Source: a virus. Taken from it: 30,134 bases of DNA. The stretch spans positions 1-30,134 of the IMG/VR virus record IMGVR_UViG_3300000361_000007; one strand, written 5' to 3'. How positions within the stretch are numbered: the first letter of the stretch is position 1; each line of letters starts with the position of its first letter. Both the position numbers and the translations under genes were made by a program. The notes beneath the pieces are model-generated. The model did not search any database, had not been told where the DNA came from, and saw nothing but the letters and a program-made list of their open reading frames with translations. Positions 3,841 through 30,134 of the stretch are shown here, one piece after another.

Positions 3841-5076
3841 TTACACCTCCGTTGTGTCAATCTCAATCGACCCATCAGTTGCGTCTGTTGTCGCTCTCTC
3901 GTTGTCGTCTATAGAGATATTTGAGCTACCGGACGGTGGCTGCGACGTATCTACTTCGAGATTGTCGATATCATAGACACCGCGGATGTTGCGAATCGCG
4001 TATTTGATTTCTCCGATAACGACCTCCTCGCCAACACCGAGCTGGCCGCTGGCCGCGTTTCCTGTCGAAAGTATCCCACCGACGTATCTGGTAATTTCGT
4101 CACGAACTGCGTCGTCTCCCTCATACTCGTCCGTCACGCTGATATTAGCCGAGATGTATATTTGCACAGGGATGTGTCGAGAAAACTCAACGGAGAACGT
4201 CTGTCCGTTGCTCAGAGTAGCATCTGTCGTTACCGGACTGCCATACGCTCCGGCATAGGCTGTATCTCCCGCTGCCTTAGTTTCCAGTATTAATTGGCCT
4301 ATGTCTTCGTCGTCGCCTCCCTCAACGACCAGTTCAAATGAATGGGCGGGAAGGCCGCCGGACCCCGTGTTATCCACGCTCGTATCGTTGGTGAATATGG
4401 ATACGTTGGTCACTCCATCGAGCGAACTGGTACCAGAAACGAGTGCAGCAGCAGTTGCTTTTGCGCCCTCGGCCAGTTCGTGCTTTGCCCGCTCACGAAG
4501 TTCGTCGTCTGTCTCGCGTTCTGCTCCGCCCTCTGTTGGGTCCGGGTTAGTAACGGCCTCGATTCCAGACGGTGGTGTGGGCATAACCACGAGCGTGTTA
4601 GAGCCAAGTATTCCATCAACGCCGGGGTTCTTGGATTCGACGGGAACCGCTATTTCTGTGTCCCCTTCTTCAAGCGTTACAGACTGAGTCGTCTCGAACC
4701 GAACAGGGTCGAAGCGGTGGTCAGTCTGAACAGTCGTCCCTCTCGGAATTGTGTAGTCGGTGCTGGCGGCGTTCTCGCGGGAAAAGATTACCTCTCCCGT
4801 AGCACGCCGTCCAGAACGTCTCCGAACGCCGATAAGAGCAGTGAGTAAGTCCAATGCGCGACCATCGGCATTATCAATCTGAGCGGAGCTTAGAACGAGA
4901 CCGATATCTTGCTGTGCTTCCGCAAGACGCTCCGCTACTGGTGTATAAAAAGCACGAATAACGGAAAATTCGCCGTCGTTTAAGTCTTCACCGAACTCGT
5001 CTCGTGCATCTTCGATTAGCGCATCAAGAATGTCATCGGCGGTGTCTTCTACAAAAGTTCCATCTACAATAGTCAT
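3841..5076 (-). CDS. Baseplate J-like protein
   Basis: 411 residues, clear Baseplate_J family. The N-terminal helical part (about 10-75) contains DGRALDLLTALIGV, the family's usual entry motif. The TIPRGTTVQT segment near 113-122, NPGVDGILGSNT near 150-161 and the TDDELRERAKHEL helix near 188-200 are characteristic. The protein forms the baseplate wedge periphery that triggers sheath contraction. It overlaps no neighbour but is only 1 base from the gp25-like gene and 3 from the gpI-like gene, so the set is co-transcribed. Confidence 0.92.
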   Translation of the reverse strand: MTIVDGTFVEDTADDILDALIEDARDEFGEDLNDGEFSVIRAFYTPVAERLAEAQQDIGLVLSSAQIDNADGRALDLLTALIGVRRRSGRRATGEVIFSRENAASTDYTIPRGTTVQTDHRFDPVRFETTQSVTLEEGDTEIAVPVESKNPGVDGILGSNTLVVMPTPPSGIEAVTNPDPTEGGAERETDDELRERAKHELAEGAKATAAALVSGTSSLDGVTNVSIFTNDTSVDNTGSGGLPAHSFELVVEGGDDEDIGQLILETKAAGDTAYAGAYGSPVTTDATLSNGQTFSVEFSRHIPVQIYISANISVTDEYEGDDAVRDEITRYVGGILSTGNAASGQLGVGEEVVIGEIKYAIRNIRGVYDIDNLEVDTSQPPSGSSNISIDDNERATTDATDGSIEIDTTEV

Positions 5077-27845: not shown

Positions 27846-28228
27846 ATGACCTGCTGAAATCTGAAAAATTCTGAGCAAGTTACGTCCCCACGCGCCCGCG
27901 CACCCCCGTGCGTGACCGTGTTGCAACCGCAGCGCTTGCGTATGGCACTTTTGCGTGGCATCGCGTACGGGCATCGCGCCAGCGCCCGCGCCCGCGCCCG
28001 CTCGCCACGACGCAGCGTATGAGCGCTACGCATTGCGTATGGCACCGCCTGTACGCAACCGTATGACAGGACAAAATCGAGAGACGGCAGCCCGATAGAC
28101 GCATCCGTTCGCAACGGGACGCTGGCAGCGCATCGCTCGCTCGCTCGTTCGCACCCCCGCGTAGCGCTCGCAACACGACAGTTACCGGCAGATATTGCCT
28201 ACAAATCAGTGTCGCGCAGCAGAGTTGA
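27846..28228. repeat. GC-rich non-coding stretch with direct and inverted repeats
   Basis: This stretch is more GC-rich than the virus genes. TTGCGTATGGCAC occurs twice exactly (27936-27948, 28033-28045), each preceded by AGCGCT, and partial copies (TTGCGTGGCA at 27951-27960; GGCATCGCG) surround them. There is a tandem CGCGCC-type run near 27974-28000 and a 7-bp inverted repeat TTGCGTA/TACGCAA (28033-28058). ORFs here give Arg/Cys-rich proteins unlike the acidic genes nearby, so it is judged non-coding. An origin with iteron-like repeats or a host-derived segment are both possible. Confidence 0.5.
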
Positions 28229-28249
28229 GTATATAAAGGGTATATAAAG
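28229..28249 (-). promoter_or_regulatory. Two tandem archaeal TATA boxes facing left
   Basis: GTATATAAAG occurs twice, at 28229-28238 and 28240-28249, 11 bases apart. Its complement CTTTATATAC is close to the archaeal BRE/TATA consensus, so leftward transcription into the GC-rich region would start near 28200-28215. No protein gene lies downstream until the HNH gene on the other strand, suggesting a non-coding or antisense transcript. Confidence 0.45.
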
Positions 28250-28395: not shown

Positions 28396-28414
28396 CATCA
28401 CCCATCTGTGTCGT

Positions 28415-29497
28415 GGTATCGACTGATGAACCGAAAGGCGAGGTCGTGGCCGTCGTTTGTACGGTCGCAAGCCACACACCTGCCAACGACCACGGGTGAC
28501 AGACGTACGAGGCAGGTGTACCCGACCACGGGAGTCGGGCACGCCATACTCGGATGTGGGCTTAGGTCCACGTCGAGGCATGGATGGAACGAGAGCCAGC
28601 CTGTAGGCTGTCCTCCGAGTGCCCCTCAAGGGTTCGCGCCCTCCGGGTAATGAGGCGCGAGACACAGCCAAGGCGCAAGCCTGTGCAAAGCCGTAGAAGT
28701 GGTCAAGCCCCTCCGGGGCTTATCGGGTTCCCAAATACACGGGAGAGTTCGCCCCCTTCACATGGCAAGCCATGTGACCTTCACGGGTCATAGGGTTGGA
28801 CAGCGAAGCCTGACTGACGACCTCTCACACTCTACGAGTGTCACGTCGTCGGAACGGTGGAGTCAGAGGTGCAGCCTTCGGCTTGAACCGGGACACAGAG
28901 CGCTTCCCACCTTCGGTGGTAGTAGCATGGTGTCACGTTCGATGACCACACAACAGAGTTGTGTGACGACAAGAACGCCGGGCTTTGTGCAAGGAGGCCC
29001 CGGAAGGGGACGGCGAAGGTGAATACTGCCTTATAAGGCAGCGGAATTTCCTCGGCGTGAATAGGCCTTTGGCCTACACGGTGCAGCCAAGCTGATGACG
29101 CCAGAGCGGTTCCCGGCCATCTCCCTACGGGAGAATCACCACTGACCACCCTCCGGGTGGCAAGGTCGGATTGTGTGATGACGGCAGAGGCACTCAAGCG
29201 AAGCTTGTTCGAGATGGGCAAATTCCTACGGAATTTCAACGATTCCGTTCACTCCTCGGAGTGAACGCCGGAAGCACAGGACATGAGTCCTGTCCGAACA
29301 GGTGCCGAGCGAGTTCGAGGCGAAGCAGCTCACCCCTTGGGGTGAGTTCCGATAAGGTGCAGCCAGCGGATACCACGGTTCCCTCGGGAACCGCCGCTAA
29401 AGGCCAATGACGCACGGACTGCTAAAGCAGTCACTTGGGCGAACCGGAAGCCACCGATAGGTGGTACAGAAAATCGACGTGGTCTTTTGACCAAAAC
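28415..29497 (+). ncRNA. Large hairpin-array RNA, previously unrecognised
   Basis: No ORF here resembles the acidic proteins of this genome. The sequence is a series of perfect short hairpins. From the 5' end: CGAC/GTCG with inner CC-GAAA-GG (28420-28446), GTGGC/GCCAC (28446-28475), a 9-bp stem ACACCTGCC/GGCAGGTGT (28476-28519), CCCGAC/GTCGGG (28521-28539). From 28597 on, about twenty stems of 5-9 bp with 3-4 nt loops follow, for example at 28705, 28758, 28827, 28947, 29026, 29062, 29120, 29146, 29220, 29246, 29277, 29329, 29376 and 29417. Outer helices enclose some (28816-28850, 29056-29080, 29365-29398). Loops recur: TAC, TCC, TTC, CTCG. It resembles in style, not sequence, large ornate RNAs such as GOLLD, ROOL and OLE. 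Confidence 0.75.
28868..29364 (+). repeat. Repeated short motifs inside the structured RNA
   Basis: GGTGCAGCC occurs three times (28868-28876, 29080-29088, 29356-29364). TGATGACGSCAGAG occurs twice (29093-29106, 29176-29189). AACGCCGG occurs twice (28974-28981, 29264-29271). TGATGA, the C-box motif bound by L7Ae in kink-turns, is found at 28424, 29093 and 29176. These are single-stranded or junction segments between hairpins and suggest repeated modules. Confidence 0.6.
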
Positions 29498-29552
29498 GCT
29501 GCTGACTGGTGTTACCCCTACGGGGTAGTGGGTTCGATTCCCACAAGCAGCA
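29498..29552 (+). ncRNA. tRNA-like structure at the 3' end of the RNA
   Basis: The 5' acceptor strand GCTGCTG (29498-29504) pairs with AAGCAGC (29545-29551) over 6 bp plus one G-A, and A29552 is in the discriminator place. The T-arm is perfect: GTGGG (29528-29532), loop TTCGATT (29533-29539), CCCAC (29540-29544), joined directly to the acceptor stem. Between them are eight bases with a GG that could dock on the T-loop, and a 6-bp hairpin TACCCC-TAC-GGGGTA (29513-29527) in place of D and anticodon arms. No anticodon loop exists, so it is not a decoding tRNA. It could be a processing signal for RNase P and tRNase Z, as in mascRNA of MALAT1, or a tmRNA-like end domain. Confidence 0.7.
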
Positions 29553-29553
29553 T

Positions 29554-30106
29554 GGCTTCAACTGGAAGCCTGACCTCTATCTCCACAGGAGATACGTCAC
29601 AGAACAGCAGAACTATGGCAGCTATCCCCAACTTCGCAGAAGTTGCACAGAGCGAGAACAAAGAAGCGGCTGAGTCGGAGACTCAGAAAGGCGAGACAGT
29701 ACAGACACTCGAACTCACCGAAGGTGAGATTGACAACTACACGGCGTATGAGGCGATGGTGGACGTTGGCCGCTACGCCTCAGCTCTGCTGAAGGAAACC
29801 GGCGACGACCGTTACCAGTCAGTCGTAGACTGGGCAGTGGAAAAGAAAGAAGAACTCCGTAAGGAGTGCAAGGAACAGGACGGGAACCTCCCGATGTTCC
29901 GGGCAGCCTTCCCGGTCGAGGACCGCGCAAATGATGTGTGGGTCCTTCCCGCCGAGGAAGCGGCAGAGGTCGGCATCGACTACGACAGCGAGGACTACAT
30001 AGCCCTTCCCGTCTACGACGGGACGAAGTGGAACCCGAAGCTGATTGACGACGAGCCTGTCGAAGACAGCAACGACGAGAGCGAGACGGAGACCGTCGAA
30101 GACGGT
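29554..30106 (+). repeat. Hairpins embedded in the following ORF
   Basis: Perfect stems with mostly 3-nt loops continue through the leader and coding region: GGCTTC (29554-29570, 5-nt loop), TATCTCC-ACA (29578-29594), CAACTTC-GCA (29629-29645), CTGAGTC-GGA (29670-29686), CTCACC-GAA (29714-29728), TCAGC-TCT (29780-29792), CAGTC-GTA (29820-29832), ACTCC-GTAA (29854-29867), TCCCGTC-TAC (30007-30023), CTGTC-GAA (30057-30069), ACCGTC-GAA (30092-30106). Confidence 0.85.
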
Positions 30107-30134
30107 GAGCCACAGACAGAAGCTCAGAAGCGGG
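29615..30134 (+). CDS. Acidic protein, 3' end beyond the window
   Basis: Open to the window end (at least 173 codons). Composition is haloarchaeal: Glu/Asp-rich with a helix NYTAYEAMVDVGRYASALL near 40-58, VVDWAVEKKEELRKE near 67-82, a strand part with FRAAFPVED and VWVLPAEEAAEVGIDY near 95-125, IALPVYDGTKWNPK and an acidic tail. No family recognised. An in-frame ATG at 29552 overlaps the last base of the tRNA-like structure; cleavage there would remove it, so 29615 is preferred. It is linked to the structured RNA by proximity, direction and shared hairpins. Confidence 0.7.
   Translation, partial: MAAIPNFAEVAQSENKEAAESETQKGETVQTLELTEGEIDNYTAYEAMVDVGRYASALLKETGDDRYQSVVDWAVEKKEELRKECKEQDGNLPMFRAAFPVEDRANDVWVLPAEEAAEVGIDYDSEDYIALPVYDGTKWNPKLIDDEPVEDSNDESETETVEDGEPQTEAQKR

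Follow-up and report, generated by a model that had tools for sequence, protein, structure and literature searches.

A candidate viral t-element between a long structured RNA and an ORF in a haloarchaeal tailed virus, with relatives in viral operons

Results

A tRNA-like element separates a structured RNA from an ORF

The window studied here is the whole of a 30,134-base virus record from a haloarchaeal tailed virus. Its terminase, portal and major head proteins, recognised by PHROGs matches, are encoded on the minus strand. In tblastn searches the terminase small subunit matched 52 phage records, all at less than 60% identity and all named Halorubrum, Haloarcula or Halophage; those whose taxonomy was examined belong to the Hafunaviridae. 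Divergently from these genes, the plus strand carries a hairpin-rich RNA, then a tRNA-like element and then an ORF of phrog_29632, with the following features.

28227..28249, plus strand: AT-rich promoter-like stretch with repeated TATATAAAG, upstream of the RNA (putative promoter)
28400..29497, plus strand: large RNA rich in hairpins, with an approximate start; conserved in two Natronorubrum proviruses, where it also precedes this ORF
29498..29504, plus strand: acceptor stem, 5' strand GCTGCTG; six pairs, G7·A66 unpaired
29505..29512, plus strand: eight-base linker ACTGGTGT, containing the TGG motif of most family members
29513..29527, plus strand: extra 6-bp hairpin TACCCC-TAC-GGGGTA, missing from the common ~41-nt form
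29528..29544, plus strand: T arm GTGGG-TTCGATT-CCCAC, exact 5/7/5
29545..29551, plus strand: acceptor stem, 3' strand AAGCAGC, joined directly to the T arm
29552, plus strand: discriminator-like base A; predicted tRNase Z cut at 29552/29553 and predicted RNase P cut at 29497/29498
29554..29570, plus strand: hairpin GGCTTC-AACTG-GAAGCC directly downstream of the element; predicted 5' end of the downstream mRNA
29615..30133, plus strand: phrog_29632 ORF (function unknown), still open where the window ends; PHROG match 1.6e-55

The anatomy given in the first-pass annotation of the element (29498–29552) holds, with an acceptor stem, an exact 5+7+5 T arm with a TTCGATT loop, a direct junction between the two, and eight bases followed by one 6-bp hairpin. 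The acceptor stem, though present, consists of six Watson-Crick pairs, with the G7·A66 mismatch beside the T stem. Acceptor, hairpin and T arm are all present in the ViennaRNA minimum-energy structure, the stability of which is unremarkable (z -1.76; equalled by 11 of 200 shuffles). The hairpin that follows at 29554–29570 has a folding energy of -9.0 kcal/mol, equalled by 2 of 100 shuffles. The element had been placed between the RNA and the downstream ORF; its position between a conserved structured RNA and the phrog_29632 ORF is borne out. By homology that ORF most likely starts at 29615 rather than at 29552.

The window element has the t-element trait of an acceptor strand directly following a 5/7/5 T arm with a TTCRANN loop. 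D and anticodon arms are absent and a TGG-type linker is present, as in the 5S-type t-element, with one hairpin in addition; the TGG may correspond to the GG of a D loop. A tRNA is recognised by its D and anticodon arms and by ARAGORN detection, and the element shows none of these: ARAGORN reported no tRNA and no tmRNA in the window. Searches with Rfam at gathering thresholds gave no match in the window either, the best sub-threshold match of the element being mascRNA-menRNA (RF01684), which spans the whole element at 30.2 bits, with a cut-off of 42.5.

Related elements recur in haloarchaeal viruses

A descriptor written after the window element had been seen, and modelled on it, specified at least 6 of 7 Watson-Crick acceptor pairs, a TTCRANN loop, a 5-bp T stem and a middle of 8–34 nt. 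Run on 494,615 nt comprising the window, HRTV-25, HRTV-27 and related contig stretches, it found nine elements, compared with a mean of 0.46 in shuffled sequence (50 sets, 50-nt blocks); a tenth lies at the N. bangense provirus locus L032. Five of these ten elements, viral or proviral, served to train a covariance model of 41 positions, R2, whose E-values are rough (short calibration). At E≤0.05 the model matched 18 of 31 whole virus records, a set that includes close relatives and short fragments, so that the 18 are not independent cases. Across 48 viral or proviral stretches totalling 886,163 nt, R2 returned 43 matches of at least 20 bits, or 41 without two duplicate N. bangense copies, and the five training elements among them score highly by construction.

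Most of these 41 matches (38) lie outside any ARAGORN tRNA and 31 are 39–44 nt long. The commonest form is RNNNNNA - NTGG - about six bases - NNNGG TTCRAYT CCNNN - RNNNNNY, in which base 7 is usually A and stands opposite a purine. Further matches came from HHTV-2 (Saparoviridae, 37.9 bits), HRTV-7 (36.7 bits), HSTV-2 (28.1 bits) and HRTV-4 (24.8 bits); R2 found no match in HVTV-1 or HCTV-1. As controls, 400,000 nt of the N. bangense chromosome contained no R2 match of at least 20 bits (best 18.9), and the bacterial phages T4 and T5 gave one match each (24.0 and 20.4 bits), both of them 3' parts of ARAGORN tRNAs. The window copy is atypical of the family, being 54 nt long with an extra hairpin and scoring 21.6 bits (E 0.049 in 886 kb). 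An alignment gave no support to the idea that a Serpecor1 element is the published partial tRNA-Arg.

The window region itself has no useful close DNA relatives in phage records: an 81-nt query returned only short T-arm matches there, none extending over more than about a third of its length. The exact pattern of the element's 3' end had no match in IMG/VR, and R2 found no match in two short contigs (L073 and L074) whose major head protein is 83% identical.

Viral elements lie mostly in gaps and precede stable hairpins

In the annotated records, 8 of 11 elements occupy intergenic gaps, and each of the 11 has the same orientation as the CDS on either side. Both HF2 elements are wholly within gaps (2905–2945 between 2875 and 2979; 4375–4414 between 4346 and 4446), as is the single HHTV-2 element, between CDS 57 and CDS 58. 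Four of six HRTV-27 elements are in gaps, allowing at most one coding base (p 0.032 against random 40-mers of that region), and two are inside annotated CDS; R2 recovers five of the six, and only the descriptor finds the sixth (54692–54739). One of the two HRTV-25 elements is in a gap and the other overlaps the annotated 5' end of gp106.

The 30 nt downstream of 28 elements, drawn from the 41 by omitting near-duplicate orthologues and the weakest matches, fold with a mean energy of -10.0 kcal/mol, compared with -4.9 kcal/mol for mononucleotide shuffles. This downstream fold begins within 3 nt of the acceptor stem in 27 of the 28 and at the fifth nucleotide in the remaining one (L003 17783); at least two of the 27 (L156 10893 and L070 10457) do not exceed shuffles in stability.

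DNA surrounding the two HF2 elements is conserved in 41 and 43 phage records, respectively, and we compared both elements among eight viruses of the HF1 group. Their T arms are invariant. The acceptor of the second element has two compensatory pairs, suggesting purifying selection on pairing, and its downstream hairpin also has two; the first shows three in the downstream hairpin and no compensatory acceptor change. In all eight viruses, both HF2 elements have a conserved GTGACACCNAT stretch after the hairpin, located at the start codon that follows (L131 2945–2980 and 4415–4446; alignments A13 and A14).

The upstream RNA is conserved and the element at its 3' border is not

A blastn search with the upstream RNA gave 71% identity over 251 nt, and Natronorubrum sulfidifaciens and N. 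bangense proviruses carry this RNA immediately ahead of the same ORF. Compensatory double changes occur in 9 of 36 predicted pairs of a three-sequence alignment of the 3' part (29295–29478), and whole-RNA folds of the two homologues have z-scores of -7.2 and -6.0 (20 shuffles each). The upstream RNA is thus real and conserved between the Natronorubrum proviruses and the window. A model of the RNA, R1, matched only the two Natronorubrum genomes from which it was built among 391 haloarchaeal genomes; a single low-scoring match in HRTV-25 (15.4 bits, E 0.0048), 5' of gp107, is suggestive only.

GOLLD and ROOL are ornate large phage RNAs, in which a long structured RNA is found near tRNA-type sequences in viral DNA. 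Unlike these, the upstream RNA matched no Rfam family, GOLLD and ROOL included. The long ornate RNA, in each case upstream of a phrog_29632 ORF, occupies window 28400–29497, L031 5020–5940 and L032 4960–5900. These three haloarchaeal viral or proviral loci form a new family of long ornate RNAs, of which the window copy has no Rfam match.

Possible counterparts of the long RNA are seen in HRTV-25 (L003 20500–21460, minus strand) and HF2 (L131 306–1970, plus strand), where hairpin-rich stretches with little or no annotation lie 5' of an early ORF, at a matching genome end. The HRTV-25 protein gp107 was considered as a distant relative of the window ORF product and set aside (hhalign E 1.5e-4 but a probability of 51), and the same relationship for the first CDS of HF2 was unsupported (E 0.4); since neither is established as a relative of the ORF, HF2 and HRTV-25 are likened to the window by position only. 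The N-terminus of the ORF is matched in 13 of 391 haloarchaeal genomes, two of them strongly. In phage records the window protein had no match, and its homologue at L008 had only three weak partial ones. The 23 nt at 28227..28249 are 95.7% identical to HRTV-25 DNA upstream of that virus's own hairpin-rich stretch, and this AT-rich stretch is the presumed promoter of the RNA.

Acceptor pairing in homologues had been named beforehand as a point on which the element should be judged. Both the R2 search and the sequence show that the element is absent from the RNA–ORF junctions of N. sulfidifaciens and N. bangense, which instead hold a stem whose closing strands, read by eye, are GACCGG/CCGGTC or GACCAG/CTGGTC, while both proviruses have R2 matches further down the same strand. 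Being absent from the junctions of the two nearest homologues of the RNA, the element is not part of that RNA; together with the matches further downstream, this makes it look like a movable punctuation mark of viral operons rather than a conserved 3' end of the RNA.

Host relatives precede 5S rRNA

Searching the 391 haloarchaeal genomes with R2 gave matches in 177 at E≤1e-3. We examined 20 matching loci, a subset of these, and 16 of them immediately precede 5S rRNA and have the same type of linker, often showing A1·C72 and A7·A66. In 15 of the 16 a 5S core motif occurs within the next 80 nt; the sixteenth, L186, shares its 5S start with L187 and L191. At L179 the last base of the element is 1541, and 5S rRNA follows at 1543–1665 by Rfam (84.9 bits). 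Three of the other four loci have viral or proviral ties: L172 is the N. bangense provirus, L174 is identical to an element in virus record G002, and L177 is nearly identical to one in virus record G004. The fourth, L178, holds a strong 41-nt element (1501–1541) that is neither 5S-linked nor placed in a known provirus.

A t-element is reported in H. volcanii directly upstream of 5S rRNA, where processing by tRNase Z generates the 5S 5' end (PMC4326828), a role of tRNase Z that is repeated in PMC7714728. The primer itele1 starts with ACCGATATTGG (PMC4326828), the form seen at L189 and L190. The host elements found here 5' of 5S rRNA are the t-element described in H. volcanii, and one covariance model, R2, finds both these and the viral elements as a family, the window copy only at 21.6 bits (E 0.049). 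The 5S t-element (Hoelzle 2008, 2012, cited in PMC4326828) has in common with the viral elements an acceptor stem, a TGG-type linker, a 5/7/5 T arm with a TTCRAYT loop, the lack of an anticodon arm, a length of ~41 nt and a frequently unpaired 7·66 position; its processed RNA starts one nucleotide downstream. The viral copies differ in lying between mRNA genes, in occurring as several diverse copies per genome and in being followed by a hairpin, and the window copy differs further in its extra 6-bp hairpin and in following a long RNA. When flanking a crRNA, t-elements release it through RNase P and tRNase Z in vivo in H. volcanii (PMC4326828).

Discussion

A proposed cutting mark in viral transcripts

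The analysis shows the anatomy, recurrence and placement in gaps, the downstream hairpin, and the ability of a model trained on viral and proviral copies to find host 5S t-elements. On these grounds we consider it probable that the window element is a viral t-element, a host RNase P and tRNase Z substrate serving as punctuation in a polycistronic transcript. Cleavage of the viral elements, the enzymes taking part and the protective role of the hairpin are inferences. A primary transcript would start from the promoter-like stretch near 28227 and run through the RNA, the element and the ORF. The 5' border of the element (29497/29498) would then be cut by host RNase P, and the junction that follows the discriminator base (29552/29553) by host tRNase Z, sites predicted from the host 5S t-elements, in which 5S starts one nucleotide past the acceptor. 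Cutting would detach the message of the ORF from the long structured RNA and give the latter a defined 3' end; with the tRNase Z cut after the discriminator base, the ORF message would open with the hairpin at 29554–29570, which probably shields the new 5' end. Related viruses have up to seven R2 matches each, mostly between early genes, pointing to a general role in which host tRNA-processing enzymes would punctuate long primary transcripts; these marks are probably where such enzymes cut.

Structured tRNA-type units between genes also punctuate mitochondrial transcripts, where RNase P and tRNase Z cut at them; unlike these, the viral units are not tRNAs and have no anticodon. Polycistronic bacterial mRNAs can be cleaved by RNase P at an intergenic tRNA-like fold within an operon, and such sites are not known to have a dedicated, repeated element of acceptor and T arm. 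MALAT1 and MEN beta likewise have a tRNA-like element (mascRNA-menRNA) 3' of a long RNA. The comparison with MALAT1 made in the first-pass annotation survives in part: 3' release of the window RNA is possible, but the arrangement is specific to this lineage, as the two homologues of the RNA have no element. Further differences from mascRNA-menRNA are the RF01684 score below cut-off and the setting in an archaeal virus. The RNase P and tRNase Z cuts also proposed there are favoured by the covariance model common to the viral elements and the host 5S t-element, which is processed (PMC4326828).

A broader reading, which we hold only tentatively and regard as somewhat doubtful, is that the 5S-type t-element has spread through the early operons of haloarchaeal tailed viruses and that the window mark frees a noncoding RNA of ~1.1 kb. 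Each mark would then create a 3' end for the RNA before it and, after it, an mRNA that opens with a protective hairpin, using host enzymes only, and release of the window RNA would be a MALAT1-like arrangement that evolved independently in an archaeal virus.

Alternative explanations

The acceptor stem and T loop are features recognised by tRNase Z and RNase P, and the host relative undergoes cutting, with the 5' end of 5S lying one nucleotide further on; both argue against the rather unlikely alternative that the element acts uncut, as a leader or a stability or translation element, for instance at transcription starts. In favour of an uncut leader, the elements usually precede a gene and come with a hairpin, and the HF2 5' end T-4384, mapped by primer extension, falls within an element and is interpreted by its authors as the start of transcription from a promoter of its own, claimed to lie upstream (PMC8707807). 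T-4384 lies inside the element at 4375–4414, nine nucleotides past its first base and not at a border, and is possibly a reverse-transcriptase stop in the fold; it is the one published HF2 5' end at such an element and counts against cleavage. Also to be set against the t-element reading are the atypical window copy, the missing element at both homologous RNA–ORF loci, the lack of a compensatory acceptor change in the first HF2 element, and the overlap of two of six HRTV-27 and one of two HRTV-25 elements with CDS.

That the element is a degenerate tRNA gene without function is improbable. Viruses of this group do carry partial tRNAs (PMC7230728) and 3 of the 41 R2 matches overlap ARAGORN tRNAs, but the near-uniform length of ~41 nt, the conserved linker and T loop, the hairpin that follows, the placement in gaps and the compensatory acceptor changes in orthologues speak against it. 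An attP site, or the leftover 3' end of a host tRNA gene as in integrative elements, is still harder to credit: att sites are commonly tRNA 3' ends and HF2 has a tRNA-like attP beside its integrase (PMC8707807), but there are several copies per virus with differing sequences, pairing of the 5' acceptor strand is kept although an att core has no need of it, and no integrase was found among ten window proteins scanned. Furthermore, the 24-nt T-arm and acceptor 3' end was unmatched, at up to one mismatch, in 371 haloarchaeal genomes, a set outside which the true host may fall. The unremarkable single-sequence folding energy would suit a chance fold, which we judge about equally implausible, since only about 0.03 descriptor matches are expected by chance in 30 kb and the element lies in sense orientation between RNA and ORF with a hairpin after it. 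A tmRNA-like end domain had been offered as the alternative; an acceptor and T arm ending a long RNA would fit it, but ARAGORN and Rfam searches gave no tmRNA match and the element is missing from both homologous RNAs, so we give this idea almost no credence.

Implications and HF2 transcripts

As far as we found, t-elements are known from H. volcanii and what is new here is a family of them in viral operons: no such family was described in the largely open-access literature that we searched on haloviruses, tRNA-like elements and RNase P or tRNase Z. If the t-element reading is true, a known but rare host element, that of 5S rRNA, has been turned into a repeated cutting mark in viral operons, and could serve as a general signal when archaeal virus genomes are annotated. 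The viral elements would further show that a natural substrate of RNase P and tRNase Z in archaeal mRNAs can be as small as ~41 nt, and tRNA-type punctuation of mRNA could be tested in well-studied viruses and laboratory hosts.

Such cutting would explain the contrast in HF2 between very long transcripts detected by RT-PCR and Northern species of mostly 1–2.5 kb, for which the authors suggest processing (PMC8707807); we regard this pattern as indirect support. The short HF2 transcript F1 is reported to start at the first annotated CDS, and a middle transcript to include the RtcB gene (PMC8707807). The tRNA-like sequences and hammerhead ribozyme of these viruses have been singled out for further study (PMC7230728). 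In HF2, an annotated hammerhead ribozyme (L131 10292–10359) lies between two co-directional early genes and is another possible transcript-cutting mark.
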